A stretch of 64,000 nt of DNA, from contig CACJUO010000003.1 of assembly GCA_902596675.1 (NCBI GenBank), positions 1-64,000 of the forward strand, given 5' to 3'. The stretch's first letter is position 1. Each line of letters opens with the position of its first letter. This document shows, one piece after another, positions 1 to 25,150 of this stretch. This DNA is from an uncultured Pelagibacteraceae bacterium (GTDB lineage: Bacteria > Pseudomonadota > Alphaproteobacteria > Pelagibacterales > Pelagibacteraceae). A program made the position numbers and the translations under genes. The notes beneath the pieces were generated by a model. That model was given only the letters and a program-made list of their open reading frames with translations. It was not told the DNA's origin and searched no databases.

Positions 1-526
1 ACTTAGAACTTTTCAAATAGCTCATGAATTCTCAAATATGACAGTTCTTGAAAATCTAATGATGGTACCTGGTAATCAGTCTGGTGAAATTTTATTAAAT
101 GCACTTTTAAAACCAAATTTAATTAAAAAAGAAGAGGATATAATAAGAGCAAAAGCATACGAAGTAACTGAGTTTTTAAATCTTAAACATCTAGCAAATG
201 AACGTGCTGGCAACTTATCTGGAGGTCAAAAAAAGTTATTAGAACTTGGAAGAACCATGATGGTTGATGCAAAACTAGTATTATTGGATGAAGTAGGAGC
301 AGGAGTAAATAGAACATTGTTAAAAGACTTAGGCTCAGCAATCTTAAGACTTAACAAAGAAAAAAACTATACTTTTTGTATGATTGAACATGATATGGAT
401 TTTATAAGCAGAATGTGTGATCCAGTTATTGTAATGTCAGAAGGCTCTGTTCTTTTTGAGGGAACTTCAGATGAAGTTAAGAAAAACGAAAAAGTTATAG
501 ATAGTTATTTAGGTAGAAAGAAGTGA
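1..526 (+). CDS. livG: Branched-chain amino acid type ABC transporter ATP-binding protein (LivG-like), truncated by left window edge
   Basis: LSGGQKKLLELGRTMM signature, Walker B LVLLDEVGAGVN; frame is open to the window edge upstream of the listed ATG at 38 (LRTFQIAHEFSNM...), so 38 is not the real start. Confidence 0.85.
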   Translation, partial: LRTFQIAHEFSNMTVLENLMMVPGNQSGEILLNALLKPNLIKKEEDIIRAKAYEVTEFLNLKHLANERAGNLSGGQKKLLELGRTMMVDAKLVLLDEVGAGVNRTLLKDLGSAILRLNKEKNYTFCMIEHDMDFISRMCDPVIVMSEGSVLFEGTSDEVKKNEKVIDSYLGRKK

Positions 527-1234
527 ATGGCATTTTTTGAGGGAAATAAAATGACAGGAGGATACGGCGATGGTCCTGATATAATTAGCTCATGCTCTAT
601 AAATGTTAATAGGGGAGAGATAGTTGCTATTCTCGGACCAAATGGAGCTGGCAAATCCACAGCAATGAAGGCAATGCTTGGATTGTTAAATCTAAAATCA
701 GGTAATATTTCAATTGATGGAGAAGATATTTCTAAACTATCTCCTCAAGATAGAGTTAAAAAGGGAATATCATTTGTACCACAAACTAGAAATGTTTTCG
801 CAGAACTTACTGTAAAAGAAAATTTAGAAGTTGGTGCTTTTTTAAGAAAAGATAATGTAAACAATGTTATCGAGGAAATATATGATCTATTTCCAATCTT
901 AAGAGAAAAAAAAGATCAAGTTGTTGGACAATTATCAGGTGGACAAAGACAACAAGTAGCTTTGGGAAGAGCTTTAATGATAAAACCATCTGTTCTTATG
1001 TTAGATGAACCTACAGCAGGCGTTTCCCCAATAGTAATGGACGAATTGTTTGAACATATTATTAGAGTTAAAAATACAAAAGTAGCAATCATCATGGTCG
1101 AGCAAAATGCAAAACAGGCTTTAAGCATTTCTGATCGAGGATATGTTCTTGTAACTGGAGAAAATAAATTTGAGGGGTCTGGTAAGGAATTATTAAATGA
1201 TCCAGAAGTCAGGAGATCTTTCTTAGGAGCTTAG
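527..1234 (+). CDS. livF: Branched-chain amino acid type ABC transporter ATP-binding protein (LivF-like)
   Basis: Walker A GPNGAGKST, LSGGQRQQVALGRALM, LMLDEPTAGVSP; abuts livG. Confidence 0.88.
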   Translation: MAFFEGNKMTGGYGDGPDIISSCSINVNRGEIVAILGPNGAGKSTAMKAMLGLLNLKSGNISIDGEDISKLSPQDRVKKGISFVPQTRNVFAELTVKENLEVGAFLRKDNVNNVIEEIYDLFPILREKKDQVVGQLSGGQRQQVALGRALMIKPSVLMLDEPTAGVSPIVMDELFEHIIRVKNTKVAIIMVEQNAKQALSISDRGYVLVTGENKFEGSGKELLNDPEVRRSFLGA

Positions 1235-1235
1235 T

Positions 1236-2246
1236 ATGGATTTAATTAATGCAGTAATAGTTTTATTGAATTATACAATTATTCCAGCCTTAACATATGG
1301 TTCTCAATTAGCTCTTGGAGCAATTTTTGTAACATTAATATACGGTATTTTAAGATTTGCTAACTTTGCAACTGGGGATATGATGTCATTTGGTACAATG
1401 TTTGCTGTACTTTTGACTTATTACTTCCAATCTATTGGAATTAATTTTGGTTTTCTGCCTACAGCCTTGCTCACTATTCCTTTTGCAATTTTTATGATGA
1501 TTTTATACATGCTGATAATTGATCAAACAGTATTTAAATATTACAGAATCAAGAAAAGTCCGCCAGTTATGCTTGCAATGGTCAGCGTTGGTGTAATGTT
1601 TGTAACACAAGCAATAATAAGAATTATAATTGGACCAACTGACCGAAGATTTTTAGATGGTGAAAAATTTATTTTAAAAGCAACTGAATTTAAAGAAATG
1701 ACAGGTCTTGCTGAAGGTTTAACAATTAAATCTACACAAATGATAACAATTGTAGTTACTATAATTGTTGTTGCAATTATGTTTTGGTTTTTAAATAAAA
1801 CTAAAACTGGAACTAGCATGAGGGCTTACTCAGATAATGAGGATTTAGCTCTACTTTCGGGAATAGATCCAAAACAAGTGGTTCTAATTACTTGGATTAT
1901 AGCTGGAATATTAGCAACAATTGGAGGGATTCTTTATGGTTTGGATAAAAGTTATAGACCATTCGTGTATTTTAATAACATGTTACCCATTTTTGCTGCT
2001 GCGATAGTAGGGGGGATAGGAAATCCATATGGAGCATTCTTTGGTGGTTATGTTATAGCATTTGCTGAAATATTTTTGACTTATGCATATAAAAGATTTT
2101 TAGTTTATATTTTGCCAGAGTCTTTAGAACCAAATTCGTTGATGCAATTATTATCAACAGATTATAAATTTGCGATCTCATTTTCGATACTAGTCATTGT
2201 TTTAATATTTAGACCATCAGGCATATTTGAAGGAAAACGTATATGA
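1236..2246 (+). CDS. livH: Branched-chain amino acid type ABC permease (LivH-like)
   Basis: Multi-TM, LALGAIFVTLIYGILRFANFATGDMM, AAAIVGGIGNPYGAFFGG; between livF and livM. Confidence 0.87.
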   Translation: MDLINAVIVLLNYTIIPALTYGSQLALGAIFVTLIYGILRFANFATGDMMSFGTMFAVLLTYYFQSIGINFGFLPTALLTIPFAIFMMILYMLIIDQTVFKYYRIKKSPPVMLAMVSVGVMFVTQAIIRIIIGPTDRRFLDGEKFILKATEFKEMTGLAEGLTIKSTQMITIVVTIIVVAIMFWFLNKTKTGTSMRAYSDNEDLALLSGIDPKQVVLITWIIAGILATIGGILYGLDKSYRPFVYFNNMLPIFAAAIVGGIGNPYGAFFGGYVIAFAEIFLTYAYKRFLVYILPESLEPNSLMQLLSTDYKFAISFSILVIVLIFRPSGIFEGKRI

Positions 2247-3613
2247 GGAATTATTTAAATATAATTGTAGCGTATTCGATAATGCTACTTTTAATTATTT
2301 TAGTTGGCATCTTTCAGTCTTGGTCTATCGCATTAACAATATTTAATTATTGTATGATTTCTGCAGTGATGACACTGGGAGCAAATATTCAATGGGGTTA
2401 TGCTGGCTTAATAAACTTTGGGATCATGGGTTATACAGCATTAGGTGGTTTGGCAGTTGTATTAGTATCTGTTGCGCCTGTCCCTGAAGCTTGGAGAGTT
2501 GGTGGAGTTAATATGATGACCTGCCTTGGAATAATTATATTAATGATTTTTTCTACAAGGTACATTTTAAAAAATATTCAAAAATCTAATAAAAGAAATT
2601 ACTTAGTAGCTGGAATAATTATTATTGGATTAATTCTAATAAAAATAATTGCTGGACCTGCAATTGAACAAATAGAAGCTGTTGATCCTGCAAAGACAGG
2701 GTTTCTTGGAGGACTTGGGTTACCAGTTTTATTCTCATGGATAGTTGGAGGACTTTTTGCTGCTGGGCTAGCATTTATTGTAGGGAAAGTGGCTTTAGGA
2801 TTAAGAGCAGATTATTTAGCTATTGCAACGTTATTGATAGCTGAAATTGTTGTTTCCATTATTAAACATGAAGATTGGTTAGCAAGAGGAGTTAAAAATG
2901 TTATTGGTTTAAAAAGACCAGCTCCTTATGAAATTGACCTACAAACTTCTCCTTGGTTTATAAATTTAGTAGAAAAATTTCACTCAGCAAAATTAGATCT
3001 TGCAAATTCATTGTCAGAGAGACAGGATATTTTAAATCAGTTGGTGATAGATGCATCATCTGTTTATGTAAAACTATGTTTTGCAGGCATGTTTTTAGTT
3101 GTAGTTATAATTTTATTAATAATTACACAAAAGGCTCTTTACTCGCCCTGGGGTAGAATGATGAGAGCAATAAGAGATAATGAAGAAGCTGCAAGCGCAA
3201 TGGGTAAGAATGTGGTTAAACAACATTTATTCATATTTATTTTAGGTTCTGCAATTGTGGGTATTGCTGGAGCTATGATGGTAACTAATGATGGACTGTT
3301 TACCCCAGGGAGCTATAGACCAATGAGATACACATTTGTAATTTGGGTAATGGTAATTGTTGGTGGTACAGGTAACAACTTTGGAGCAATTCTTGGAGGA
3401 TTTGTTGTATGGTTCTTGTGGGTAGAAGCAGCACCTATTGCTTTATTTTTCATAAATTTATTTACAGCTCATTTACCTGAAACGAATGATATCAAAATTC
3501 ATTTAATTAATAGTGCTCCATATTTTAGATTTTTGCTCGTTGGTATTGGACTTCTTCTGATAATGAGATTTAGACCTCAAGGAATAATTCCAGAAAAAAT
3601 TATAAAACAATAA
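2243..3613 (+). CDS. livM: Branched-chain amino acid type ABC permease (LivM-like)
   Basis: GYAGLINFGIMGYTALG, RAIRDNEEAASAMGKNV, GGTGNNFGAILGG; 4-nt overlap with livH. Confidence 0.87.
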   Translation: MRNYLNIIVAYSIMLLLIILVGIFQSWSIALTIFNYCMISAVMTLGANIQWGYAGLINFGIMGYTALGGLAVVLVSVAPVPEAWRVGGVNMMTCLGIIILMIFSTRYILKNIQKSNKRNYLVAGIIIIGLILIKIIAGPAIEQIEAVDPAKTGFLGGLGLPVLFSWIVGGLFAAGLAFIVGKVALGLRADYLAIATLLIAEIVVSIIKHEDWLARGVKNVIGLKRPAPYEIDLQTSPWFINLVEKFHSAKLDLANSLSERQDILNQLVIDASSVYVKLCFAGMFLVVVIILLIITQKALYSPWGRMMRAIRDNEEAASAMGKNVVKQHLFIFILGSAIVGIAGAMMVTNDGLFTPGSYRPMRYTFVIWVMVIVGGTGNNFGAILGGFVVWFLWVEAAPIALFFINLFTAHLPETNDIKIHLINSAPYFRFLLVGIGLLLIMRFRPQGIIPEKIIKQ

Positions 3614-3619
3614 TTTGCG

Positions 3620-4228
3620 ATGAGTTATTTCATTTTAGGGTTCTTTACAGGACTGAGTTTAATATTAGCTATTGGGGCTCAAAATATATTTGTAATTGAG
3701 CAAGGTTTAAAAAAACAATTTATTTTTACTGTATGTGCAATTTGCACATTATCAGATTTCCTTCTTATATTTTTAGGAATATTCTTATTCTATTATTTTG
3801 AGAGTTTTTTTTCACCTTTAGTTGATCTTATTCTAAATATTCTTTTATTTTTATTTTTAATTTATTTTATTTGGAAAAAACTGAAAAATATAAATATCAA
3901 TTTTGAAATAAATAGCAAAAATGAAACATCAAGTCTAAGTTCTGTAATATTTAAAACACTAGGTTTTACTTATTTAAATCCGCATGTCTATTCTGATACT
4001 GTTTTTTTTTTAGGAAACTTTTCGAAAAGTTTTTTAATTAATCAAAAAATATTATTTGGGTTTGGTGCAACTCTTTCATCAATAATATTTTTTTTTACAT
4101 TGGGATATTTGTCTAAGTTTTTATCTGATTATTTAAACAGCAACAGAGTTTGGAAAATTATTAATTTTTCGATAATTTTATTTATGTCGTCTCTTAGTAT
4201 TTACGTGTTAAACAATATTTTAGGATAA
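3620..4228 (+). CDS. LysE-family amino acid exporter
   Basis: GLSLILAIGAQNIFVIEQGL N-terminus and hydrophobic ~200 aa, typical of LysE/ArgO. Confidence 0.75.
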   Translation: MSYFILGFFTGLSLILAIGAQNIFVIEQGLKKQFIFTVCAICTLSDFLLIFLGIFLFYYFESFFSPLVDLILNILLFLFLIYFIWKKLKNININFEINSKNETSSLSSVIFKTLGFTYLNPHVYSDTVFFLGNFSKSFLINQKILFGFGATLSSIIFFFTLGYLSKFLSDYLNSNRVWKIINFSIILFMSSLSIYVLNNILG

Positions 4229-4273: not shown

Positions 4274-5464
4274 TTATCTTTGTTTTTTGTCTTTAAACTT
4301 ACCACCCTTAATTTCTTTTTCAATAAAGGCACCAGATGCTTCTCCAACATCTGTAAGTTCTACACTTGAAGCTCCTTCATAATTTACAGCTTTCCCACTA
4401 GCTAATAAATCTAAAGCTTTTTTCAATTCACCAGGATAAATTTTTTCTCCTGGAGCATTTGCAACAGACATTACATTTGCTTGGACAGTTCCTCTGTCAG
4501 CTTTTCCACCAGCTTGCATAGCCAATACTATCAAAGCTGCAGCATCGTAAGATTCTGAAGTGTAAGGACCTGAAGAATCAATTCCTGCGGCACCAGCAAC
4601 ATCTTTGAATATTGTTGCACCTTTACCCATTGATCCTGGAAGTGATCCAAAAGATTTATTTAAATCATTACCAAATCTGTCTGTTAAAGAGTCACCGATC
4701 ATGCCATCAGATAAAACAAATACATCAAATGCACCTGAGTCTAATGAGCCATCGATGATACTTCCTCCAGCTTGATCTAAGTAACCTAAAACAGCTAAAG
4801 CATCTCCACCGGCAGCTGCCAATGTAGCAACTTCTGCACCGTAGTCTCCTTTACCTTCTTCGTGAGCTGTCACAACAGTTACGTTTATACCGTGAGCTTT
4901 AACAGCCGCAACATATACATCTGCTAAACCTTTTCCATAATCATTATTTGTATGTGTAACTGCAATACTTTTAACTTTTCTATCTTTAGTAATATCTGCT
5001 AATACTTGACCACCTCTTGCATCAGATGGAGCAGTTCTAAAGAAATAACCGTTGTCTTTAAGATCAGTCAATCCTGGAGATGTAGCTGATGGTGAAATCA
5101 TAACGACACCATTTGGTACAGCAACATTTGTTGCTATTGCTCCAGTTACTCCAGAACAGTCAGCTCCCATAATTGCTACTACACCGCCAGATATTAAACC
5201 TTCTGCAGCAGCTGTTGCAGCAGCTGAGTCAACACAAGTTGAATCTGCTCTTTCAACAGAAATTTTTTTACCACCTAGCAATGAACCTGAGTCTGAAGCT
5301 TCTTTAAATGCAAGCTCTGCAGAAGCAGCCATAGCTGGAGTTAGGGACTCAATAGGACCTGTAAATCCTAAAATAATTCCCATTTTAATGCCATGTCCAT
5401 CTGAATATGCTTTTGAGGTAAAGCAAGATACAATGATAAACATCGCTAATACTAGTTTTTTCAT
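4274..5464 (-). CDS. livK: ABC transporter substrate-binding protein, branched-chain amino acid type (LivK-like)
   Basis: Signal peptide MKKLVLAMFIIVSCFTSKAYS then IKMGIILGFTGPIESLTPAMAASAELAF; next to liv ABC genes. Confidence 0.85.
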   Translation of the reverse strand: MKKLVLAMFIIVSCFTSKAYSDGHGIKMGIILGFTGPIESLTPAMAASAELAFKEASDSGSLLGGKKISVERADSTCVDSAAATAAAEGLISGGVVAIMGADCSGVTGAIATNVAVPNGVVMISPSATSPGLTDLKDNGYFFRTAPSDARGGQVLADITKDRKVKSIAVTHTNNDYGKGLADVYVAAVKAHGINVTVVTAHEEGKGDYGAEVATLAAAGGDALAVLGYLDQAGGSIIDGSLDSGAFDVFVLSDGMIGDSLTDRFGNDLNKSFGSLPGSMGKGATIFKDVAGAAGIDSSGPYTSESYDAAALIVLAMQAGGKADRGTVQANVMSVANAPGEKIYPGELKKALDLLASGKAVNYEGASSVELTDVGEASGAFIEKEIKGGKFKDKKQR

Positions 5465-5536: not shown

Positions 5537-6394
5537 TTATCTCATTTTTTGTGCAAAAAACACAGAAGTAATTACAATTAATCCCCCGGTAACAGTAACT
5601 AAAGATGGAACTTCACCAAATATGAAAAAAGTAAGAATTAACCCAAAAACTGGGAACAAAGCGTAGAAAGGAAGTACCATATCAATTGGATAAAATTTAT
5701 ACAAATAAAACATCATTAAATGACCAAATAAAGAGATTATAGCTCCTGCATATAATACTGTAAGCCAACTTCCAATACTAATATTTTTAATAGTTTGAAT
5801 AGAAGTTCCTTCAAACAATACTGATAGTATAAATAAAATTACAAATCCAACTAAACTCATAAATGTATTTGTAAATTTTAAATCTAAATTTTTAAGATAC
5901 CTGGAGAAAACTTGCGATAAACCATAAAAAAACGCCATACAACAAATTAGGAGAGATCCCGTTAATTCCTCAACAACTTTTGGATCAAAAGCAAGTATCA
6001 CAATACCAAAAAAAGATGTCATGATAAGTAACCACTTTTTATAACTTATCTTTTCACTCAAAAATATTGAACTTAATATTATGCCAAAAGGAATAGAAAG
6101 CTGAGCTCCTATTGTTATAGGTGCTAGAATGCTTGAAGCGTTTATGGACAAATATAAAAACATATTAACCATAACGCCAAAACAAATTGAAAACCCAATC
6201 AAAGGGATAACATATTTTCTTTCAATTATTTGAAATTTAAAAAAAGGTATTAAACATAAAAACACAATTAACATTCTTAAACCACCAAAAAGAATTGGAG
6301 GTATTGTATCGTTTAATCCTAATTTACCTGTAGGATATGCACTTCCAAGGAGGAAGACTACAAATAAAATAAGTAATGTATGTTTGGTTGACAA
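5537..6394 (-). CDS. EamA/DMT-family permease
   Basis: ~10 TM, two EamA-like repeats (GSAYPTGKLGLNDTIPPILFGGLRM; FFYGLSQVFSRY). Confidence 0.75.
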   Translation of the reverse strand: MSTKHTLLILFVVFLLGSAYPTGKLGLNDTIPPILFGGLRMLIVFLCLIPFFKFQIIERKYVIPLIGFSICFGVMVNMFLYLSINASSILAPITIGAQLSIPFGIILSSIFLSEKISYKKWLLIMTSFFGIVILAFDPKVVEELTGSLLICCMAFFYGLSQVFSRYLKNLDLKFTNTFMSLVGFVILFILSVLFEGTSIQTIKNISIGSWLTVLYAGAIISLFGHLMMFYLYKFYPIDMVLPFYALFPVFGLILTFFIFGEVPSLVTVTGGLIVITSVFFAQKMR

Positions 6395-6397
6395 TTA

Positions 6398-7879
6398 TTA
6401 TCTGATTGAGAAAGGATCTAAAGTTGGTTCATCAGAGGTATAATACCAAGTAGTTTTAACTCTAGTATAATCTTTAATTGATTCCATTCCTGCTTCCTTT
6501 CCATACCCGCTATCTTTAATTCCTCCAAAAGGTGCAGATGGTGAAATTAGTCTATAAGTGTTAACAAATGTTATTCCTGCCCTAATAGCATTAGATACTC
6601 TTAAACCTCTAGCAAAGTCACTGGTGTATACACCAGAAGATAATCCATATTGATTATCATTCATTTTTTCTATGACTTCTTTTTCATCATTAAATTTCAT
6701 GACAGATAAAACTGGTCCAAATAGTTCATTTTCAGCAGTCGGAAGATTGTGATTATCACACTCAATTATTGTTGGAGGAAAATAATAACCTTCATTAGAA
6801 AATGGATGTCTTTTTCCTCCACATTTAACCTTTCCACCTTGCTCTATTGTTTTTTTTATATTTTTTTCGATAATTTCTAGTTGCTTAAAGTTACTTAAAG
6901 GGCCCATTTCAGTATCAGGATCCATTGGAGCGCCAATTTTAATTTTTTCAGCTCTTTTTGTAAGTTTATCAAGAAACTCATCATAAATTCCTTTTTGCAA
7001 ATATAATCTTGAACCTGCAATACAACTTTGTCCACTAGCACCAAATATACCCGCAGTAATTCCATTGATAGCATTTTCTTGATGCGCATCATCAAATACT
7101 GCAACCGGGCTTTTTCCACCTAATTCTAAACTAACCTCAGACAAGTTTTCTGCAGAATTTCTAATAATATGTCTTGCAGTTTCAGGTCCTCCTGTAAAAG
7201 CCACTTTCTCAACTAAATCATGCGTGGTTAAAGCTTTACCACATGGATCTCCAAATCCCGTAATCACATTAACTACTCCTTTTGGAATACCAGTTTCCTC
7301 TATAAGTTTTGCAAATTCAAACATCACAGCAGGTGCAAGCTCAGAGGATTTAATTACAACTGTATTTCCCATAGCTAGAGCTGGAGCAAGTTTTGTTGCT
7401 GTTAAAAACATTTGGGAGTTCCATGGTACAATTGCTGCAATAACACCTATAGGTATTCTTGAGGTTATAGCTTGAATGTTTGGTTTGTCTATTGGTAGAA
7501 CAGTACCTTCAACTTTATCAGCCATACCAGCGTAATAGTCATAATATTCTGCGATATAGTTTGCTTGTTTGTTGGTCTCTCTAAATAGCTTTCCAGTATC
7601 AATCGTTTCAATCTTGCCAAGTAATTCTGCATTGTCTCTAAGTTTGTTTCCAATAGCTCTTAAAAATTTAGCTCTTTCTCTTGGCAATATTTTTGGCCAA
7701 TCCCCTTCAAAAGCTTTCTGAGCAGCTTTAACTGCTTTGTCGACATCGTTGGCACTTGCTTCTGGAACAACAGCCCATGGTTTGTTATCTTCTGGGTTTA
7801 ATGTTTCAAAAGTTTTTTTAGTATCAGAGTCAACCCATTCTCCTCCAATAAACATTTTATATTTTTTTAGTTCAGGCAT
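6398..7879 (-). CDS. NAD(P)-dependent aldehyde dehydrogenase
   Basis: VSLELGGKSP and FGASGQSCIAGSRL catalytic Glu/Cys motifs, VPWNSQMFL, ELFGPVLSV. Confidence 0.9.
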   Translation of the reverse strand: MPELKKYKMFIGGEWVDSDTKKTFETLNPEDNKPWAVVPEASANDVDKAVKAAQKAFEGDWPKILPRERAKFLRAIGNKLRDNAELLGKIETIDTGKLFRETNKQANYIAEYYDYYAGMADKVEGTVLPIDKPNIQAITSRIPIGVIAAIVPWNSQMFLTATKLAPALAMGNTVVIKSSELAPAVMFEFAKLIEETGIPKGVVNVITGFGDPCGKALTTHDLVEKVAFTGGPETARHIIRNSAENLSEVSLELGGKSPVAVFDDAHQENAINGITAGIFGASGQSCIAGSRLYLQKGIYDEFLDKLTKRAEKIKIGAPMDPDTEMGPLSNFKQLEIIEKNIKKTIEQGGKVKCGGKRHPFSNEGYYFPPTIIECDNHNLPTAENELFGPVLSVMKFNDEKEVIEKMNDNQYGLSSGVYTSDFARGLRVSNAIRAGITFVNTYRLISPSAPFGGIKDSGYGKEAGMESIKDYTRVKTTWYYTSDEPTLDPFSIR

Positions 7880-8645
7880 TTTGTATATGGTCTTTTATTG
7901 TATTATTTACATCATCTGAGCATTCAATACTACAGAGATGTTTTCCTTTAGGAATAATTTTTACAACAGAATTTTTAATTTTTTTACCTAAATTAATTGA
8001 CATTTCTGGGGTTGATCCCACATCACCTTCACCAGTTATCACTAAAGTTTTAGTCTTGATGTTTTCAAATTTTTCATTGTCTTGATGTTTCACGAATAAG
8101 GAATAGATCTTTATAAAATTATTCATATTATTGTTTTGAAGAATTTTGAAAATTTTATCGGAGATGCCTGGATTTTTATTTAAAAAATCTTCTGTAAACC
8201 ACCTTTTAAGAGCATCTTTAGTAAGTTTATGATCTTTTTTGGTCTGTTCAAATCTATCATTTACAATTTTTTGCTCTTTATCAGATCGATTAAATATAGA
8301 ACACAAGAGTGTAAGAGAAGCTAATCTATCGTTAAATCTTGAAGCAAAATTTCTTGCAATTAATGAACCTATAGAAAAACCAACTAAGTGAACTTTATTA
8401 AATTTTAATTCATCCATTAAGTTTAATATTTGATTGGAAAAATCATCAAAACTTAAATCATTTTTGTTTAAAGGTGTTTTACCATGACCTAGAATATCAT
8501 AAATTAAAACAGTATTATCAAATTCATTTATCTGTGGATCCCATATAGAGTGATCAAGTCCCACACCGTGGATAAATATGATTGGAGTTCTATCTTTTTT
8601 ATTTAATATATAGAATGTACCTTTTGAGTCTGTTGCATGAATCAT
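7872..8645 (-). CDS. Alpha/beta hydrolase (3-oxoadipate enol-lactonase-like)
   Basis: HGVGLDHSIWDPQ, nucleophile elbow GFSIGS, late His in KGKHLCSIE; 8-nt overlap with ALDH. Confidence 0.8.
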   Translation of the reverse strand: MIHATDSKGTFYILNKKDRTPIIFIHGVGLDHSIWDPQINEFDNTVLIYDILGHGKTPLNKNDLSFDDFSNQILNLMDELKFNKVHLVGFSIGSLIARNFASRFNDRLASLTLLCSIFNRSDKEQKIVNDRFEQTKKDHKLTKDALKRWFTEDFLNKNPGISDKIFKILQNNNMNNFIKIYSLFVKHQDNEKFENIKTKTLVITGEGDVGSTPEMSINLGKKIKNSVVKIIPKGKHLCSIECSDDVNNTIKDHIQNA

Positions 8646-8647
8646 TA

Positions 8648-9235
8648 TTACTTTGGTTCAATGCCCATTTCCTTCATGTCTTGGTATCTATCACCTGTTC
8701 TAGCATGTGCTCTTCCAGTTGAAGCACCTCCAATTGCGATTACAATTTCGTCATCAAATGGAGCATCATGTATTGTAAACTCATGTGTTAAATAATAAGG
8801 CCTTAAACCTGAGTCAGTTTTATGCATCATTGGAATTGATATTTTTGATCCAGCAGGACCCCTCGTGTTTGTAAAACTTAGGTAAGAAGTACCACCGACT
8901 GCATCTCTAAATTTATTACCAAATCTCAATGTATGGATAAAAGCAGATGCATGCTCAATTTCTCCATTTAATCCAACTACACCAGCTTTTCCATAAGCTA
9001 ATATTTTATCAGGAGAACCTATTTCTTTGATTAATTCTGGGACAAGTAAATCTCCAAGTTTTGGAGCTAGATCTAAAATTATAGGTTTTAAATCTTCTAC
9101 AAAACCTTTCCCGTCCCAAGGATTTTTAAAAATTGCTGCTACAGAAACCATTAAAACTGGATCTTTAGCTTCTTTTCCACCCTCAATAAAAGTTTTATCT
9201 ACAAATTTATTAAATTTTCTTAATTCTAATTTCAT
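8648..9235 (-). CDS. DUF1185 / 'amino acid synthesis' family protein (PF06684-like)
   Basis: Overall sequence (GKAGVVGLNGEIEHASAFIHTLRFGNKFRDAVGGTSYLSFTNTRGPAGSKISIPMMHK) matches this family as I recall it. Confidence 0.65.
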   Translation of the reverse strand: MKLELRKFNKFVDKTFIEGGKEAKDPVLMVSVAAIFKNPWDGKGFVEDLKPIILDLAPKLGDLLVPELIKEIGSPDKILAYGKAGVVGLNGEIEHASAFIHTLRFGNKFRDAVGGTSYLSFTNTRGPAGSKISIPMMHKTDSGLRPYYLTHEFTIHDAPFDDEIVIAIGGASTGRAHARTGDRYQDMKEMGIEPK

Positions 9236-10932
9236 TTTTTAATTCGATGTGTAAAGCTATCTCTTCTAAAACTGTATAATGCTTTTGGATCTACATCAAC
9301 ATCTATAACAACTGGTTTGTTTGCTTTAAGTGCACTTTTAACTGCTTGATTTACCTCTGATAATTTTTTCACTTTAATTCCTTTTGCACCGTAAAGTTTA
9401 GCAACCTCATCAAAAGGAGGACTTTGAATATCTGCGCCCAAATACCTTTCACCATAAAAATCTTTTTGGTAAGCCTTTTCGGCGCCCCAACTTTTATTAT
9501 TCATAACTATTGTAATTGTATTTATTCCATGCTCTACAGCAGTGCTTAATTCTGAAATAGTCATGCCAAATCCACCATCGCCCATTAAACTAACTACAGT
9601 TTTTTTAGGTTTTGCAACCTTAATTCCCAAACCACAAGCAAATGAAAAACCTACTAATCCAAAATCTAAAGGAGTAAAAAGAGAAGGAGGATTATAATAC
9701 TCTAAAGCATCAGTAGCTTGAAGGCAAAGTGTTCCAGCATCAAGTGTAATAGCTGAATTTTTAGGAAGAACTTTTCTTAACTCTTTAAATAGTCCATTTG
9801 GTTGTATTGGATAATTTTTAGATTTTATATTATCCCTATTTATTAAAAACTTTGATCTTTCTAATAAAAAATTATTTGTCCATTCTTTATAACTTAAAAT
9901 TTTCTTTTGTTTTTTTAAATCATTCAACATTTGATTTGCTACATTTGCAGCATCGCCATGAATACCAATACTAATAGGAAAATATCTTCCTAACATTTTT
10001 TTTTCTAGTTCAACTTGAATAATTTTAGCTTTATTGTTTATATTATCGTAAGAGTAGAAAGTAGAATTAAAACCAAGTCTTGTTCCTAATGCAATAATAA
10101 GTTCTGCTTCTTTAACCAGTCTTGAGGCAACTAAATTGCCTCTTGGTCCCATTTGTCCAGCATTTAGTTTGTGACTAAATGGTATCGCATCTCCATGTCC
10201 AGCGGCTGTTACTATTGGAACGTTTAAAAATTCAGCAAGATCAGTTACAGATTTAAATTTTGAATTATATTTTATACCTCCACCAGCAACAATTACAGTT
10301 TTCTTGGAATTAAGAATAAGTTTTGTTGTTTTCTGAATTAAATCGTTTTTGCTTTTTAAATTACTTTCACTTTTAAAAGACTTTTTATTTTCATTGATTT
10401 TAAATTTTGATGTATCTGAAAGTACGTTTCTTGGTAAGTTTATACAAACTGGACCTCTCCTTGGTGACATTGCAAGATTGAATGCATCACTGAAAGCTTT
10501 TGGAATATGACTTGCCTTTTTTACAGTCCAAGTCTTTTTTGTTATTGGATTAAATAGTGACTGTTGATCAAGTCCTTGAAATGCATCTTCCATTTTATCC
10601 TTGGTAGAATATAAACCCGCAATAGATACAACAGGGGAAAATGCTGCTTTTGCTTGAGCAATTCCTGTAACTAGATTAGTAGCTCCTGGACCGTTTTGTC
10701 CTGCAATAATTACTCCTGGTTGATTGGAAGCTCTTGCATAGCCATCGGCCATGTGTGTTCCTGTTCTTTCATCTCTTACACCTATAAATTTAATTTTTTT
10801 TTCATGATACAACGCATCAAACATTTCCATTGTAGCAGAACCAATTAAACCAAAGACGTGTTTAACTTTTTCCTTTTTTAGGGATTTAACTGCCGCTTGA
10901 CCACCGGTCAAGGTATTCTTGGACTTAATCAC
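9232..10932 (-). CDS. Thiamine-pyrophosphate-dependent enzyme (acetolactate synthase / sulfoacetaldehyde acetyltransferase-like)
   Basis: VFGLIGSATMEMFDAL..RDERTGTHMADGYARAS..GQNGPGATNLVT; TPP motif GDGGFGMTISELSTAVEHGINTITIVMNN. Confidence 0.82.
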   Translation of the reverse strand: MIKSKNTLTGGQAAVKSLKKEKVKHVFGLIGSATMEMFDALYHEKKIKFIGVRDERTGTHMADGYARASNQPGVIIAGQNGPGATNLVTGIAQAKAAFSPVVSIAGLYSTKDKMEDAFQGLDQQSLFNPITKKTWTVKKASHIPKAFSDAFNLAMSPRRGPVCINLPRNVLSDTSKFKINENKKSFKSESNLKSKNDLIQKTTKLILNSKKTVIVAGGGIKYNSKFKSVTDLAEFLNVPIVTAAGHGDAIPFSHKLNAGQMGPRGNLVASRLVKEAELIIALGTRLGFNSTFYSYDNINNKAKIIQVELEKKMLGRYFPISIGIHGDAANVANQMLNDLKKQKKILSYKEWTNNFLLERSKFLINRDNIKSKNYPIQPNGLFKELRKVLPKNSAITLDAGTLCLQATDALEYYNPPSLFTPLDFGLVGFSFACGLGIKVAKPKKTVVSLMGDGGFGMTISELSTAVEHGINTITIVMNNKSWGAEKAYQKDFYGERYLGADIQSPPFDEVAKLYGAKGIKVKKLSEVNQAVKSALKANKPVVIDVDVDPKALYSFRRDSFTHRIKK

Positions 10933-12098
10933 GATACTTTTTTAACTTCAGTATCTAGATCATCTTTAAAGTTAGGAATTACTTTTTCAGTGAATAATTT
11001 AATACTTTTCATACAATCTTCATGTTTAACACCCGGAAAGTTAGACCATACCTGAAGATTTTGAAGATTTAGTTCTGATTGAAGTTCTTTTATCTTATCT
11101 GTTACGTATTCAGGAGTACCAAATAACATATTTCTCTTGTGTAAAAACTCATAGTTAAGAAGATCTAATTTCCCTTCTGTATGTGGAAGTTCTTCACCCG
11201 GATCCATATGATTTCCTAGACCTCTCCAATGACAAACCCATCTCATATAATTTACCATGTGTTCACCAGCTTTCTCTTTGGCTTCCTCCATTGTATCTGC
11301 AACAAACATATCTCTAACAAGAGTTACCCCTTCTCCCAAAGGAACATTTTTTTTTGTAACTTCTGATCTTTTATTTTTGTATGCTTCAAATCTTATTTTT
11401 AGTGCTTTCACAGTAGGTATCCACATAATTACGTTAATATTATTTTCTGCAGCCCACTCAATAGATCTTATGCCATCAACAACTTGATGTATTGGAGGAT
11501 GTGGATTTTGATATGGCTTAGGCAGAACACTAATTTTTTTCATAGTGCTATCTTCCATATTCATAAACTCTTCACTAGGTGGACTCATATCGTGTTGCCA
11601 CACATAGTTAGGTGACGGATACGTATAAAATTCTCCTTCGTGATTAAAAAATTTTTCTGACCAAGCTTTTTTTAAAATTTCTAATGTCTCTGCAAATAAT
11701 CTAAAGTTTTTTGCCTGATCTTTTAAATCTGCTTCTTTATTTAAATTTATTGCTTCTCGACCATAAACTCCTCTGGCAACCCCAACTTCTACTCTTCCTT
11801 TAGAAAGCTGATCAAGTGTAGCAATATCTTCTGCCAATCTTATTGGGTTATGAAAAGTAATTACGTTTGCAGCTTGTCCTATTCTTATATTTTTTGTTCT
11901 TGCCGCAGCATCTGCTCCTAACATTAAGGGATTAGTACACGACTCCATTCCCTCATGATTAAAATGATGTTCTGTAAACCATATTGAATTCCAATTATTT
12001 TGATCACAAAATTCTGTGATTTCTTTAGTCTCATCTAATAGCTGGTGATATGGTTTGTGAGTCCAATTTGTGGTATTACAAAAATAACCAAACTTCAT
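10929..12098 (-). CDS. LLM-class (luciferase-like) flavin-dependent oxidoreductase
   Basis: SIWFTEHHFNHEG, LDQLSKGRVEVGVARGVYGREA, luciferase-like TIM-barrel pattern; strong SD AAAGGAGG upstream. Confidence 0.82.
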   Translation of the reverse strand: MKFGYFCNTTNWTHKPYHQLLDETKEITEFCDQNNWNSIWFTEHHFNHEGMESCTNPLMLGADAAARTKNIRIGQAANVITFHNPIRLAEDIATLDQLSKGRVEVGVARGVYGREAINLNKEADLKDQAKNFRLFAETLEILKKAWSEKFFNHEGEFYTYPSPNYVWQHDMSPPSEEFMNMEDSTMKKISVLPKPYQNPHPPIHQVVDGIRSIEWAAENNINVIMWIPTVKALKIRFEAYKNKRSEVTKKNVPLGEGVTLVRDMFVADTMEEAKEKAGEHMVNYMRWVCHWRGLGNHMDPGEELPHTEGKLDLLNYEFLHKRNMLFGTPEYVTDKIKELQSELNLQNLQVWSNFPGVKHEDCMKSIKLFTEKVIPNFKDDLDTEVKKVS

Positions 12099-12143
12099 TA
12101 AAGCCTCCTTTAAAAATTAATTTAAAGACGACCGATCCCACTT

Positions 12144-12153
12144 TCGTATACGA
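12144..12153. promoter_or_regulatory. 10-bp perfect palindrome TCGTATACGA in leader of LLM operon; candidate operator (resembles GntR-type half-sites)
   Basis: Perfect self-complementarity, located between a candidate promoter region and the SD/ATG of 10929..12098. Confidence 0.4.
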
Positions 12154-12199
12154 TTTTACGACGAGTTATGTATCGCTTTATATAACAATATTATTATTC

Positions 12200-13171
12200 T
12201 TATCTCTGATATTCAACGAATTTTTTTAGAGACTTATTTAGAAATTTATCATATCTGATGCCACCGTTACTAAATCTTCGCTTATTTAAAAAGGAAAGAT
12301 TCATTTTAAAGTCATAAGACGGCTCAAAAAAGAAAGGAACAGAGAGCCTTTTTTGCTTATTCCACAATACCCTATGATTTGTTGCTTTAAACTTGCCTTT
12401 GCTTAAATATTCTAGCGCTCTACCTGTATTCACTACCAAGGCATTTTTATTGAAAGGAACATCATGCCATTTTTTTGTTTTCCGGTTTTGAACTTGCAAA
12501 CCTCCTTTTTTATTTTGATATAAAACTGTGAAAATACCACTATCAACATGTGTTTCACATCCAAGTGCGACCCCGTCTTGTTTGGATATTTCAACTGGTT
12601 TTGATTGATTAGGGTAATAATTAAATCGTAAAGTGCTGAGTGTTTTTAATCTTGAAAAAACTTTTTTAGATAAATTGGGGTCCTTTTTGTAAATCTTTAT
12701 AATACTTTTGAACAGAGTTTCGCTTAAATTAAATAAATTTTCAAAATAATCTGCCAGTTTTTCAATAGATTGCTTATTAAATGACCTCTCTATACTTAAA
12801 TGCTCGATGTATTGATTTCTAGTTTTTTTTGAAAAATCCTTTGTTACTTTTAAGTCACCTAAGTCTAATCCTTCTTTTCCATTAACATCATTCGGAAAAT
12901 ATCCTCGATAAATATTTTTACTCTTTTTATTCCATTTCTTTGGAGCTAATTTGAATTTATTGTTTTTATTTGATTTAAAAAAATTTTCTCCAATTTTGCA
13001 TACTTTATTTATTTTTCTTAATTTTATTCCATGACCGACTATTTGAAAAAAACCAACCTCAACACAAGCTTTTTTAATTTCCCTACTAATTTTTAATGTT
13101 GCTTTTGAATTGAAGTTATTTTTTAGAATAGGATTAATATTTATTGTTGGAATATAATTTTTTCTTATCAT
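12200..13171 (-). CDS. Isopenicillin N synthase-family Fe(II)/2-oxoglutarate oxygenase
   Basis: VGFFQIVGHGI N-terminus, HVDSGIFTVLYQNKKGGLQV (HxD), NTGRALEYLSKGKFKATNHRV (distal His), RLSVPFFFEPSYD. Confidence 0.85.
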   Translation of the reverse strand: MIRKNYIPTININPILKNNFNSKATLKISREIKKACVEVGFFQIVGHGIKLRKINKVCKIGENFFKSNKNNKFKLAPKKWNKKSKNIYRGYFPNDVNGKEGLDLGDLKVTKDFSKKTRNQYIEHLSIERSFNKQSIEKLADYFENLFNLSETLFKSIIKIYKKDPNLSKKVFSRLKTLSTLRFNYYPNQSKPVEISKQDGVALGCETHVDSGIFTVLYQNKKGGLQVQNRKTKKWHDVPFNKNALVVNTGRALEYLSKGKFKATNHRVLWNKQKRLSVPFFFEPSYDFKMNLSFLNKRRFSNGGIRYDKFLNKSLKKFVEYQR

Positions 13172-14118
13172 CTATTTGCTGGTATATCTGTAGCAATCAT
13201 TTGTCCTCGGACTTTTTCTCTAAAATAAATATACATGCCAGCACCAATAATTATTGATGCTCCAAGAAATGTTCTTGGCACTGGTATTGTTTCAAATAAT
13301 ATATAACCAGCTACCATCGCAAAAACTATGTATGAATACTCAAATAATGAAACAACTGAAGGTGAAGCAATACTATATGCAGTAAATACACAAAAAAATG
13401 AAATCGAAGCAACTATTCCCATAATTAAAACATAGGGCCATGCCTCTCCTGGATTAGTAAACCATTCTCTAACAATAAATTGCAAAGTTGGATCTGTAAA
13501 AGTGTTAAATTTTCCATCGCCGCTAATAAAAAATATTACCAAACTTGCAAATAATGCAAAAATATAAAGCCAAGTCATTTGAGTATAAATACTATCTTTA
13601 TCGGATGTATATTTTGTTATTGTCATCGAGATTGAATAGCATAGCGCACATGCTACAGGTGCTAATTTAAAGAAATTAAAATCATCTAAAGATGGATTTA
13701 AAACAATCAATACTCCAATAAATCCAACTACAATTGCACTCCATCTTCTAATTCCAATTTTTTCTTTTAAGAAAAATTTAGCAAACATAGACATAAAGAA
13801 TGGGCAGGAGAAAAATAGTGCACTTGTCATAGCAAGTGTCATAAAAGTCAGTGAAATATAAAAAAAACTAAAACCAAAGAAAAAACATACAACTCTTATA
13901 AGTGTTAATAATGGGTAATGGGTTTTTAAAGATATTGTTTTTTTAGTTATTAAAACAAAGGATAGCAAAAATACTGATTGTATAAGGGTTCTTCCAAAAT
14001 AAAGCTCGAATAAAGCAATATCTTCAAAAATAAATTTAATTAAAGAGTCTTGTATTGAAAAAAAAGCCATACCAGTCATTATAAAAAAAATACCTCTGGT
14101 ATTTTGGTTTGTATCCAT
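13168..14118 (-). CDS. EamA/DMT-family permease
   Basis: Two EamA repeats, GIRRWSAIVVGFIGVLIVLNP. Confidence 0.78.
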   Translation of the reverse strand: MDTNQNTRGIFFIMTGMAFFSIQDSLIKFIFEDIALFELYFGRTLIQSVFLLSFVLITKKTISLKTHYPLLTLIRVVCFFFGFSFFYISLTFMTLAMTSALFFSCPFFMSMFAKFFLKEKIGIRRWSAIVVGFIGVLIVLNPSLDDFNFFKLAPVACALCYSISMTITKYTSDKDSIYTQMTWLYIFALFASLVIFFISGDGKFNTFTDPTLQFIVREWFTNPGEAWPYVLIMGIVASISFFCVFTAYSIASPSVVSLFEYSYIVFAMVAGYILFETIPVPRTFLGASIIIGAGMYIYFREKVRGQMIATDIPANR

Positions 14119-14153
14119 CAGACACCTATATCAAATCAGCAGTGATAATAATA

Positions 14154-15740
14154 TTAATTATTTAAAATTGCCTCTGAGCCTTTTTCAGCAATCATAAGTG
14201 TAGGAGCATTTAGGTTTGCACTTGGTATTTCTGGTATCACTGATGCATCAATCACTCTTAAATTTCCAATCCCATTTACTTTCAAATCTTGATCCACTAC
14301 TGCCATATCATCAACTCCCATTTTGCATGTTCCACAAGGATGATATGCAGTGTCTGCTTTCGATCTAATATATTCATTTAATTCATCATCTGACTGTGCA
14401 TCAAAACCTGGCCCAACTTCATCACCAGCGTGGTTTGCTAAAGCTGGCTGAGATAGAATTTTTCTTGCAACATGAATACACTCTCTTGTTTGTTTAAGAT
14501 CTTCTTCTTCTTTTAAATAATTAAATAAAATTTTAGGATAATCGTATGGGTCTGAAGAATTAAGAGTTATTTCACCTCTACTTTTTGGATGATTTGGACT
14601 TGCATGTAGTTGATAACCATGTGAGTCAGGATCTTCTAGGCCATGATTTATCACAAATGATGGAAAAAAATGAAATTGAATATTAGCAACTTTTCTATCA
14701 GGCGATGATTTTGCAAAACCACCAGCCTCTAAAAATGATTTTGAGCAGGGTCCAGATTTAAATATAAACCATTGCATACCTGCTAAAATTTTAGGTATTA
14801 ATTTTGTGTATGTGTAAAGTGTATTAGGAGTTTTGCATTTTTGTTGTATGTAAGTTTCAAGATGATCTTGTAAATTTTTTCCAACACCCTTTGAGTGATG
14901 AATAACTTTAATACCATTATCTCTGAGATGGTTTTCGTCGCCTATACCAGATAACATTAATAATTGTGGAGAATTTATAGATCCTCCACTCAAAATGACT
15001 TCCTTATTTGCATAAATCTTTTCAACTTTGTTATTTATTTTTACTTGAAGACCAACTGCTTTTTTTCCCTCAAATAGTATCTTTTCTACAAATGAGTTTT
15101 TTAAAATATTTAAATTTTTTCTATTTTTAACAGGGTTTAAATAATACTTTGCAACTCCAGCTCTCTCGCCTTGATGCATTGTAGTATCAAACATGCCAAA
15201 ACCTTCTTGTTCCTCACCATTCATATCTATATTTGTTTTGTGACCTGCTTCAGCTGCAGCATCAATAAATGCTTTAAATAATGGATTTGAATTTTTAGAT
15301 AAATTTACTGGAAGGGGTCCCAATGAACCTCTGTATTGATTTTCACCTTCAGACCAAGTTTCAATCTTCTTAAAATAAGGAAGAACTTTATCATAAGACC
15401 AGTTATCTAAACCAAAATTTTCCCATCTGGTGTAGTCATCTCTATTACCTCTTACAAAAACCATCCCATTGTGAGATGAGCATCCTCCAATCATTTTTCC
15501 TCTAGGGCAAAAAACACGTCTATTGTTTAAATATGGTTCAGGTTCTGAATAATATTTCCAATTATATTTGGGGTCATGCATTGTATATAGAAGAGCCAAT
15601 GGCATTTGAACCTTCCAAATATCACTAGATCCACCTGCCTCAAATATAGCTACAGAATTATTAGCATTCTCAGATAATCTGTTAGCTACTACACATCCAG
15701 CTGAACCAGCACCAACTATGAGATAATCAAAAGCTTGCAT
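14154..15740 (-). CDS. GMC oxidoreductase, choline dehydrogenase-like
   Basis: GAGSAGCVVANRLSE FAD motif, GGCSSHNGMVFVRGN, GVGKNLQDHLETYIQ, AYHPCGTCKMG, N(L)NAPTLMIAEK; BetA-like across its length. Confidence 0.82.
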   Translation of the reverse strand: MQAFDYLIVGAGSAGCVVANRLSENANNSVAIFEAGGSSDIWKVQMPLALLYTMHDPKYNWKYYSEPEPYLNNRRVFCPRGKMIGGCSSHNGMVFVRGNRDDYTRWENFGLDNWSYDKVLPYFKKIETWSEGENQYRGSLGPLPVNLSKNSNPLFKAFIDAAAEAGHKTNIDMNGEEQEGFGMFDTTMHQGERAGVAKYYLNPVKNRKNLNILKNSFVEKILFEGKKAVGLQVKINNKVEKIYANKEVILSGGSINSPQLLMLSGIGDENHLRDNGIKVIHHSKGVGKNLQDHLETYIQQKCKTPNTLYTYTKLIPKILAGMQWFIFKSGPCSKSFLEAGGFAKSSPDRKVANIQFHFFPSFVINHGLEDPDSHGYQLHASPNHPKSRGEITLNSSDPYDYPKILFNYLKEEEDLKQTRECIHVARKILSQPALANHAGDEVGPGFDAQSDDELNEYIRSKADTAYHPCGTCKMGVDDMAVVDQDLKVNGIGNLRVIDASVIPEIPSANLNAPTLMIAEKGSEAILNN

Positions 15741-16568
15741 TTAATTTGGATGATCGCCCTCAACTGCAATCCTGTCCATAACTCTTTCATGGCCCAATCC
15801 TCTGCCAGGAAAAAAATCAGTCAGACCTTGGTGAAGGGTGCTTCTATTGTCCCAAATTGCTACAGCATTTTCAGTCCATTTAAATCTACATGTAAAATCA
15901 AGTCTTTCTTGATGTAAAAATATTTCATTTAAAATATCTGAACTTTCATTTTCATCTAAATCTAAAATTCTTTTAGTGTACATTGAATTTACATACAAAA
16001 TTTTTTTTCCTGTTTCAGGATGAGTTCTAACTACTGGATGGGAATTTGAATATTCATCTAGATTACCATTCCCTTCCATTTCCTTATATGCATCAACAAA
16101 CGCTGCTGCCCCTAGAGAGCTATGAATGGCTCTCTTATCATTAACCTTATCTTTAATTTTATCACTTAATGTATCGTAAGCGATTTCCATGTTAGAAAAC
16201 ATTGTATCTCCACCAACTGGTGGAACTTTAATTGATCTTAATATAATTACTTTTGTTGGTTTTGGATTATAACTTACATCAGTATGCCAAGTTTCACCCC
16301 ATTGTCTTTTTTCCTCTGGAGCTTTAATTATTCTTAGTATTTCAGGATAATCTTTTCTTCCTTTAACATAAATATGTCTTTCTAATGGACCAAAATGTTT
16401 TGCTAAATTTATCTGTTCCTCCGACGTAATATCTTGATCTCTAAAAAATAGAGCTTTATGTTCTAATAATAAATTATTTATCTTTTTCCAATTTTCTAAA
16501 GAGCTATCTTTTAAATCGATGCCTTTTACTTCTGCACCTAATGCACCTGATACTAATTTAATTTCCAT
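15741..16568 (-). CDS. TauD/TfdA-family Fe(II)/2-oxoglutarate dioxygenase
   Basis: ALFFRDQDITSEEQINLAKHFGPLERH, WHTDVSYNPKPTKVIIL (HxD), AIWDNRSTLHQGLTDF (distal His). Confidence 0.85.
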   Translation of the reverse strand: MEIKLVSGALGAEVKGIDLKDSSLENWKKINNLLLEHKALFFRDQDITSEEQINLAKHFGPLERHIYVKGRKDYPEILRIIKAPEEKRQWGETWHTDVSYNPKPTKVIILRSIKVPPVGGDTMFSNMEIAYDTLSDKIKDKVNDKRAIHSSLGAAAFVDAYKEMEGNGNLDEYSNSHPVVRTHPETGKKILYVNSMYTKRILDLDENESSDILNEIFLHQERLDFTCRFKWTENAVAIWDNRSTLHQGLTDFFPGRGLGHERVMDRIAVEGDHPN

Positions 16569-16571
16569 AAT

Positions 16572-17039
16572 CTATTTTTTTAATCTACCAGATAATTCTA
16601 AATTTTCAGACTTAAAACTTGATTTATTTTCATTAATAAATTCACCCATTATTTTTAGCTTGTCTTCCTCAAATTCTGTGACCTTTCTTTTTCCCAAATC
16701 AATATAAAGGGATAAACTTTCCATAGTAGCAGCAAGAGTTTTAGTTTCTTTTTCATACATCTCACATTTTAAGTGTAATCTTTTTTTATCATGGTCAAAA
16801 TGTGTGCAATATACCTCTACTTCTTGATTTTCTTTAACTTCATTATTGTAAGTGGTTCTAGTTTCGACAACCATAGTGCTTCTCAGATTTGATTTTGCAT
16901 TTTCGCCGCCCATTTGAAATTTATTAAGCATTGTTTCCCATGCTTGATCAAAGATTAAGATATAATAAGCCATATTCATATGTTCATTATAATCTGTCCA
17001 CTCTTTGATTATTTTTCTCGTTGCAAGATGATACGACAT
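16572..17039 (-). CDS. Hotdog-fold thioesterase, betainyl-CoA thioesterase (CdhB)-like
   Basis: EWTDYNEHMNMAYYILIFDQAWE..., 155 aa hotdog pattern; genomic context with CdhC/CdhA-like genes. Confidence 0.65.
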   Translation of the reverse strand: MSYHLATRKIIKEWTDYNEHMNMAYYILIFDQAWETMLNKFQMGGENAKSNLRSTMVVETRTTYNNEVKENQEVEVYCTHFDHDKKRLHLKCEMYEKETKTLAATMESLSLYIDLGKRKVTEFEEDKLKIMGEFINENKSSFKSENLELSGRLKK

Positions 17040-17041
17040 TT

Positions 17042-17902: not shown

Positions 17903-17903
17903 C

Positions 17904-18629: not shown

Positions 18630-18664
18630 TTATATGATTTTAAAATATAGTTGAAAAATAAATT

Positions 18665-20496: not shown

Positions 20497-20532
20497 ATAT
20501 CTTAAGAAAAATTAAAATGGTAAATTAAATAC

Positions 20533-21567: not shown

Positions 21568-21573
21568 ATATCT

Positions 21574-22344: not shown

Positions 22345-22348
22345 AAAC

Positions 22349-23134: not shown

Positions 23135-23142
23135 TATTTTAT

Positions 23143-23994: not shown

Positions 23995-24010
23995 AACTGC
24001 ACAATATAAA

Positions 24011-25036: not shown

Positions 25037-25150
25037 TTTTTAAAAGTCTAATTCTTTTAATGCATCAAAGCAAATCTACAATTAAATAAATAAAAAGCTT
25101 TCAACCATTAATTGAATTGAAATTTTTACCATTTTATATAATTATTTATC

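Follow-up and report, generated by a model that had tools for sequence, protein, structure and literature searches.

The closest described relative of the gene set considered here is the tgnABCDEF operon of Acinetobacter baylyi ADP1, reportedly described by Perchat in 2018 as an operon for the degradation of trigonelline, a nitrogen-ring metabolite of plants and plankton. In that pathway, TgnC and TgnD carry out a lactone/aldehyde oxidation and then a hydrolysis, yielding succinic semialdehyde, methylamine, formate and CO2. The trigonelline ring itself is opened by the TgnA/TgnB oxygenase, according to PMC8269262, and TgnF, a DUF1185 protein, is reported to stimulate the oxidation of succinic semialdehyde by TgnE (PMC7913881). 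Here we analyze a SAR11 operon located on the minus strand at positions 5537–12098 of a 64,000-nucleotide stretch of DNA (hereafter the window) from an uncultured Pelagibacteraceae bacterium (contig CACJUO010000003.1), together with the RNA leader that precedes it. We hold with moderate confidence that the locus is the SAR11 form of a tgn-type catabolic operon, with the leader acting as a translational ON riboswitch.

Gene content and kinship of the SAR11 operon

Judged from its gene families, gene order and phylogeny, the SAR11 operon is a variant of the known trigonelline-type pathway kind. The initial annotation had regarded its combination of genes as undescribed, yet the trigonelline operon likewise brings together a luciferase-like flavin-dependent monooxygenase (LLM), an aldehyde dehydrogenase (ALDH), an alpha/beta hydrolase and a DUF1185 protein, as do the rhizobial operons described below. 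Every family of the six-gene run scores above its Pfam cut-off, namely Bac_luciferase, TPP_enzyme_N/M/C (the thiamine diphosphate (ThDP)-dependent enzyme), AA_synth (PF06684, i.e. DUF1185), Abhydrolase_1, Aldedh and EamA, and the ALDH displays its catalytic Cys within GQSC (residues 283–286) and its Glu within LELGGK (residues 251–256). The plasmid matches obtained by tblastn with the DUF1185 protein fall into two groups, one at about 50–60% identity, which corresponds to tgn-type operons, and one at about 30–35%, which corresponds to other DUF1185 subfamilies. The order DUF1185–hydrolase–flavin reductase–LLM–ALDH is found on plasmids of S. meliloti (pSymA), Rhizobium, Ensifer, Leisingera, Chimaeribacter and Burkholderia; Falsirhodobacter shows a tgn-type order without an annotated reductase, and an Acinetobacter plasmid carries the tgn-type gene set plus a succinic semialdehyde dehydrogenase (SSADH), as detected by tblastn. 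A second layout near a DUF1185 gene, flavin reductase–ALDH–LLM–hydrolase–CMD, is present in A. fabrum, Mesorhizobium and R. leguminosarum. In trees built with these surrogate operons, the SAR11 ALDH falls, with a support of 97/92, inside the tgn-type ALDH clade, which excludes SSADH and the A. fabrum-type ALDH, and the SAR11 DUF1185 protein, a member of the tgn-type subfamily (53–56% identity), is placed near its tgn-type counterparts; for the ALDH and DUF1185 taken together, identity to the tgn-type proteins is about 50–56%. The initial statement that DUF1185 has no settled function is not supported, the family being that of TgnF. The hydrolase fits by family and motif but, at 22–28% identity to tgn-type hydrolases, is too divergent for tree placement.

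Compared to the tgn operon, the SAR11 operon has an LLM of another clade, neither flavin reductase nor SSADH (there is no second ALDH among its genes that could be a TgnE-type enzyme), an optional ThDP enzyme, Liv-type uptake, and an RNA leader instead of a GntR regulator. The clade of the SAR11 LLM is shared with homologs from genomes G355 and G370. In G355, the LLM (52% identity) belongs to a flavin reductase–LLM–DUF1185–hydrolase–ALDH operon devoid of ThDP enzyme. A 20-kb region of G370 contains two SAR11-type LLM paralogs (43–45%) together with ALDH, DUF1185, hydrolase and ABC (ATP-binding cassette) transporter genes.

The layout first reported, six complete open reading frames separated by −8 to +3 nt, was borne out when positions 5537–12098 were re-checked, the junctions being −4, −4, +2, −8 and +3 nt from the LLM end to the permease. 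The proposal of a single transcript with one strong Shine–Dalgarno (SD) sequence and a leader, then named simply as such, at its 5′ end is likewise supported: the strong SD, AAAGGAGG, is found at the LLM gene only, and none is obvious for the other genes of the six-gene run. Since, in addition, the downstream starts lie on or near the preceding stops, regulating the first start codon may affect the operon in its entirety, and translational coupling along the operon is likely. No terminator directly follows the permease gene; the first good one on the minus strand is a stem at 4261–4232, beyond the gene encoding a periplasmic binding protein (Table 1), so that this gene is likely a seventh member of the operon.

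Operon-type DUF1185 genes are present in 48 of 147 Pelagibacterales genomes, spread over two families and including that of the cultured strain HTCC1062, which was recognized by a glycine riboswitch at 498,528–498,615 (minus strand), within the intergenic region 498458–498706 that PMC2704228 lists for this strain. Wherever the contig does not stop short, the LLM, hydrolase and ALDH genes accompany DUF1185 in constant order in the 20 regions examined. Five of the 12 regions from the same genus contain the ThDP gene, as do six of the eight from the second family; of the remaining two, one has the LLM gene adjoining DUF1185 and the other starts inside the operon. HTCC1062 has the operon and the leader RNA without the ThDP gene. 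Where the ThDP gene occurs, the order LLM–ThDP enzyme–DUF1185–hydrolase holds in every one of 80 further SAR11 loci that spans these genes; these loci, fetched with the ThDP enzyme from genome contigs, all belong to the Pelagibacteraceae, and the non-SAR11 hosts named above come from plasmid records only. The EamA permease gene is often missing among SAR11 operons, and genes for the binding protein and the Liv transporter adjoin the operon in the majority of regions from the same genus, as well as in a single region of the second family. The conservation of gene order in every spanning locus, together with that of the core in the second family, argues that the adjacency is not due to chance. 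The lack of conservation envisaged in the initial annotation therefore applies to the ThDP and permease genes, and not to the LLM–DUF1185–hydrolase–ALDH core; as for a characterized pathway with the same six genes, also envisaged, none was found, and the match is confined to the four-gene core.

The ThDP enzyme proved to be Xsc-like, as initially proposed, yet not Xsc. It scores 384.6 bits with TIGR03457 (Xsc; cut-off 676.4) and 393.2 bits with TIGR00118 (IlvB; cut-off 538.35), so that both identities, sulfoacetaldehyde acetyltransferase and acetolactate synthase, were rejected. It shares with Xsc the ThDP architecture and its best resemblance at the subfamily level; in contrast to Xsc, it is encoded in operons of the ring-opening type, and its score lies far under the cut-off. 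The activating Glu55 and the GDG451–453...N479 motif are invariant (alignment A1). Orthologs (58–63%) occur in operons of other alphaproteobacteria, where a LysR gene (called by eye in each case) stands beside the arrangements ALDH–LLM–hydrolase–ThDP–CMD (genome G357), ALDH–LLM–DUF1185–hydrolase–ThDP (G453) and flavin reductase–ALDH–DUF1185–hydrolase–ThDP (G446). From these contexts, the ThDP enzyme is a genuine partner that recurs in pathways of this sort without being obligatory, and it occurs alongside both types of LLM. Two other loci (L116 and L118) contain distant homologs (42%) paired with a 650-residue NADH:flavin oxidoreductase (PF00724 + PF07992 in L116), which suggests another use of this ThDP subfamily.

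A structured leader RNA upstream of the LLM gene

The 75 nt preceding the LLM gene are almost invariant (97% mean pairwise identity in the core versus 49% in the upstream flank), and each of the 86 leader types checked has the element ahead of the LLM gene. It folds into two helices, P1 and P2, separated by an asymmetric internal loop (Table 1), with an invariant core, ACAUAACUC...GGGAU, whose halves are 15–42 nt apart owing to a variable apical loop. Under a hand-set structure, 93% of cells are paired in 26 diverse leaders. In the 53 distinct sequences among 101 leader matches, this figure reaches 96.2%, compared with 31–53% in a control where the partner strand was slid, and two-sided changes affect seven of the 16 pairs, a count reached in none of 500 shuffles; note that the 101-match alignment was fitted to the model, so that these counts lean towards it, while the MAFFT alignment was not fitted. 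The compensatory changes in P1 can be read by eye: GCGAU/GUCGUC becomes GAAGAC/GUUUUC in one leader (L044) and GUGAU/AUCAAC in another (L195). In P2, UCGU/ACGA becomes UCGA/UCGA, or CC/GG in the second family. Unaided, RNAalifold recovers P1 and the CUC/GGG helix. The reading phase is not kept, indicating that the leader is not coding. The covariation establishes at the sequence level that the mRNA leader is a conserved structured RNA.

The search with model R1 built on this element yields matches in 49 of the 147 Pelagibacterales genomes, always at the LLM gene. These include 46 of the 48 genomes with operon-type DUF1185, the contigs of the other two beginning inside the operon; the three extra genomes have a contig that breaks off within the operon, beyond the start of LLM. 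The HTCC1062 copy lies at 1,277,222–1,277,297 of the genome. No convincing copy was found among 289 genomes of the class, where matches reach only 18.6–21.7 bits (E 0.2–0.9) and the best one, in genome G191, has no operon gene nearby, nor in non-SAR11 tgn-like loci. Seventeen viral contigs matching the bare core pattern do not exceed 20 bits, with mostly broken helices, and were taken as chance matches. Second RNA copies in two loci, considered as possible other contexts, lack an SD platform and were taken as relics. In one of them (L191), the leader is duplicated (6214–6275 and 7725–7790) around an opposite-strand insert (6328–7398), which belongs to no Pfam family and immediately precedes LLM, and it is because the extra copy flanks an inserted gene and lacks the platform that we read it as a relic. 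The other (L273, in genome G024; 1791–1866, minus strand) is an orphan copy lying some 300 nt ahead of a gene (220–1488) for a membrane protein, whose sequence resembles by eye a pentameric ligand-gated channel and has no Pfam match.

As far as these tools show, the leader is a new, uncatalogued RNA. Nothing in the window reaches the gathering threshold of an Rfam 15 family; the best weak match in the leader scores 19.9 of the required 43 bits, and the weak matches (K10_TLS, snoZ30, OTKONC, Ocean-VII), all far under their cut-offs, were discarded. Structured RNAs of Pelagibacter, among them SAM-V, rpsB, rpsL, ffh, rhtB and pntA, have been described (Meyer 2009, PMC2704228); they share with our leader the organism and a position in cis-regulatory leaders, but the main text of that study lists no RNA at this operon or at positions 1,277,222–1,277,297 of HTCC1062. 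In the main texts of recent surveys and of a review on orphan riboswitches, Pelagibacter appears only within a citation. The yjdF riboswitch, which binds azaaromatics (PMC4793209), provides a precedent for an RNA sensing nitrogen aromatics, although the leader has no Rfam match to any family.

Downstream of the aptamer candidate, the SD (12111–12104) is overlapped by an anti-SD hairpin that also involves the 3′ strand of P1 (GUCGUCUUU). At the sequence level, an anti-SD helix of at least 7 bp is kept in 31 of 38 distinct tails, compared with 9.0 ± 2.5 in shuffles (maximum 16), although several leaders of the second family have a weak helix or lack it. P1 and this hairpin are predicted to be mutually exclusive, an arrangement that corresponds to a translational ON riboswitch. 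Moreover, the non-SAR11 operons of the tgn kind are flanked by LysR, GntR or helix-turn-helix regulator genes, whereas no regulator gene was seen beside the SAR11 operon in the loci examined; the RNA may thus have taken over regulation. Acting as a translational ON riboswitch, which would probably turn the operon on in the presence of its substrate, is the most likely role of the leader.

Substrate, regulation and alternative explanations

The catabolic logic put forward in the initial annotation, combining a flavin-dependent oxygenase, a hydrolase and an ALDH, is supported. The compound degraded probably belongs to the N-heterocyclic betaines, of which homarine and trigonelline are examples. 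According to the mechanism that we propose, a small zwitterionic N-heterocycle, our best guesses being homarine (N-methylpicolinate) or trigonelline, would enter via the Liv-type ABC system. The LLM, presumed to play a TgnB-like role, would use FMNH2 and O2 to open the ring into an N-formyl enamine aldehyde; the latter would be oxidized by the ALDH, with the aid of the DUF1185 protein, and the hydrolase would free the amine along with formate, so that a C4/C5 oxo-acid would be left to enter the tricarboxylic acid cycle. The substrate of the optional ThDP enzyme would be an alpha-oxo acid or an aldehyde product. At the RNA level, the ligand would stabilize P1, thereby withdrawing the CUUU strand from the anti-SD hairpin and freeing AAAGGAGG, which, through the overlapping genes, would switch the whole operon on. 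We guess, with low confidence, that a ring carboxylated at position 2 (homarine) would give an alpha-oxo acid suiting the ThDP enzyme, and that a ring carboxylated at position 3 (trigonelline) would give a beta-oxo acid losing CO2 unaided; the alpha-oxo acid could also be 2-oxoglutarate, in which case the ThDP enzyme would be dispensable. A bolder version, which we regard as conceivable but doubtful, is that the leader founds a new riboswitch class sensing either a methylated pyridine carboxylate, homarine or trigonelline, or a direct catabolite, with which SAR11 supplanted the pathway's protein regulator, and that the ThDP variant of the pathway processes an alpha-oxo acid yielded only by 2-carboxylated rings (homarine type).

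Several points weigh against a tgn-type operon controlled by a riboswitch. Kinship was judged on surrogate operons of relatives in place of the A. baylyi TgnA–F sequences. The SAR11 LLM shares 26–32% identity with tgn-type LLMs and forms a separate, supported clade, so that its substrate may differ. No flavin reductase, the counterpart of TgnA, is encoded in the SAR11 operon, and PF01613 occurs in no genome of the genus, though it is present in other genera of the order. The gmaS gene, considered as an independent sign of methylamine release, shows no link to the presence of the operon among genomes of the genus (30/35 versus 33/41, Fisher p = 0.76) and thus provides no such sign. In the leader, the three CUC/GGG pairs never vary, which leaves position as the sole basis for the lower part of P2, and a protein, in place of a small molecule, could bind the RNA.

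Among the alternatives, the one closest to our proposal is that the operon is the SAR11 version of a homarine pathway, the leader being its riboswitch or the site of a trans-acting factor; we give it a little less than an even chance. A homarine catabolic pathway was reportedly published by Ferrer-Gonzalez et al. in 2026 (Nat Microbiol 11:1531), and the SAR11 gene set could prove to be that pathway. The two have in common, at the level of host, compound and reaction type, marine bacteria, an N-methylpyridinium carboxylate and likely related chemistry. In addition, homarine is an abundant marine pyridinium betaine according to PMC8269262, and a conserved bacterial pathway of homarine catabolism that uses N-methylglutamate dehydrogenase is reported in work cited in PMC13390433; opening of homarine between C5 and C6, followed by aldehyde oxidation and deformylation, would give the N-methyl imine of 2-oxoglutarate. 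Other pyridines, however, fit equally well. An operon devoted to the cleavage of a sulfonate or ketone with no link to N-heterocycles, in which a type II Baeyer–Villiger LLM would cooperate with an ester hydrolase, the ALDH and an Xsc-like lyase, agrees with the Xsc-like rank of the ThDP enzyme in NCBIfam and with the presence of diketocamphane monooxygenase and luciferase among the solved relatives of the LLM, but it appears improbable given that the ThDP enzyme scores under the Xsc cut-off and is dispensable, and that DUF1185 and the ALDH ally with tgn-type operons.

The leader raises a similar choice. Its small size, its single gene context and the CUC/GGG helix without covariation would also suit a protein-binding or RNase-processing element, but the large invariant internal loop and the overlapping anti-SD hairpin are typical of riboswitches and no candidate gene for an RNA-binding regulator is linked to the operon, which makes this explanation unlikely, if less so than the sulfonate/ketone one. 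That the near-invariance of the core reflects a DNA operator or a short leader peptide is already disfavored and can hardly be maintained, as the two-sided compensatory changes, the variable apical loop, the non-palindromic core and the shifting reading phase all speak against it.

A translational ON riboswitch controlling a tgn-type operon would matter beyond this locus. SAR11 bacteria are among the most abundant organisms of the ocean, and homarine and trigonelline belong to the pool of labile carbon and nitrogen released by phytoplankton; with a clean gene marker that comes with its own RNA sensor, metatranscriptomes could track the use of this pool. A riboswitch for a pyridinium alkaloid would, if confirmed, represent a new ligand class. 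The presence of both operon and RNA in a cultured strain, HTCC1062, makes the question open to direct testing.

Feature coordinates and the rest of the window

Table 1. Features of the operon, its leader and the adjoining transport genes (window positions)
Feature	Position	Strand	Basis or remark
LLM flavin-dependent monooxygenase, 389 aa	10929..12098	-	PF00296, 150 bits; tree: clade separate from tgn-type LLMs
ThDP-dependent enzyme, 566 aa, Xsc-like subfamily, optional member	9232..10932	-	Pfam; invariant motifs; orthologs 58–63%
DUF1185 / AA_synth, TgnF-like, 195 aa	8648..9235	-	PF06684, 214 bits
Alpha/beta hydrolase, 257 aa, putative TgnD-like role	7872..8645	-	Pfam; nucleophile elbow GFSIG at residue 89
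ALDH, 493 aa, TgnC-like clade	6398..7879	-	Aldedh, 535 bits; tree support 97/92
EamA/DMT permease, 285 aa, TTG start, variable member	5537..6394	-	PF00892; missing from many operons
Periplasmic binding protein, Peripla_BP_6, HAAT/Liv type, own SD	4274..5464	-	PF13458; downstream of operon in most loci
Liv-type ABC transporter (two ATPases, two permeases) and LysE, convergent with operon	38..4228	+	Pfam
Leader RNA element, candidate riboswitch aptamer	12123..12180	-	Conservation, covariation
Leader P1	12179–12172 with 12132–12124, bulge 12128	-	8 bp
Leader internal loop	ACAUAA 12171–12166 / AUCG 12136–12133	-	Asymmetric
Leader P2	CUC/GGG 12165–12163/12139–12137; UCGU/ACGA 12161–12158/12147–12144	-	Variable apical loop
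Putative expression platform	12107..12128	-	UCUUUAAA (12128–12121) pairs with UUUAAAGG (12114–12107)

Within the convergent gene block, the ABC transporter part of the Liv system spans positions 38–3613. On the other side of the operon, positions 12200–31320 form a dense island of osmolyte and betaine catabolism, with 2-oxoglutarate (2OG) oxygenases, a choline-dehydrogenase-like GMC enzyme, a thioesterase, a CitE-like aldolase, a beta-keto acid cleavage enzyme (BKACE), a gamma-butyrobetaine hydroxylase-like protein and an OpuAC/ProU-type transporter. At 20533–22344 (plus strand) lies a second LLM gene, whose product is 28% identical to the LLM of the operon, with a second alpha/beta hydrolase gene after it; the pair adjoins genes for a 3-hydroxyacyl-CoA dehydrogenase and a BKACE. 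Further away, the region 49516–56995 contains a gene for the dimethylsulfoniopropionate demethylase DmdA (50656–51822, above the curated cut-off) next to a thiolase gene, along with a second ThDP enzyme (52161–53903), an FMN lactate-dehydrogenase-like gene and a second DmdA-like protein (55778–56995). Finally, the product of a minus-strand gene at 23143–23994 matches HalD/WelO5-type Fe(II)/2OG halogenases (PF23169, 43.9 bits) and may be a SAR11 halogenase or hydroxylase.

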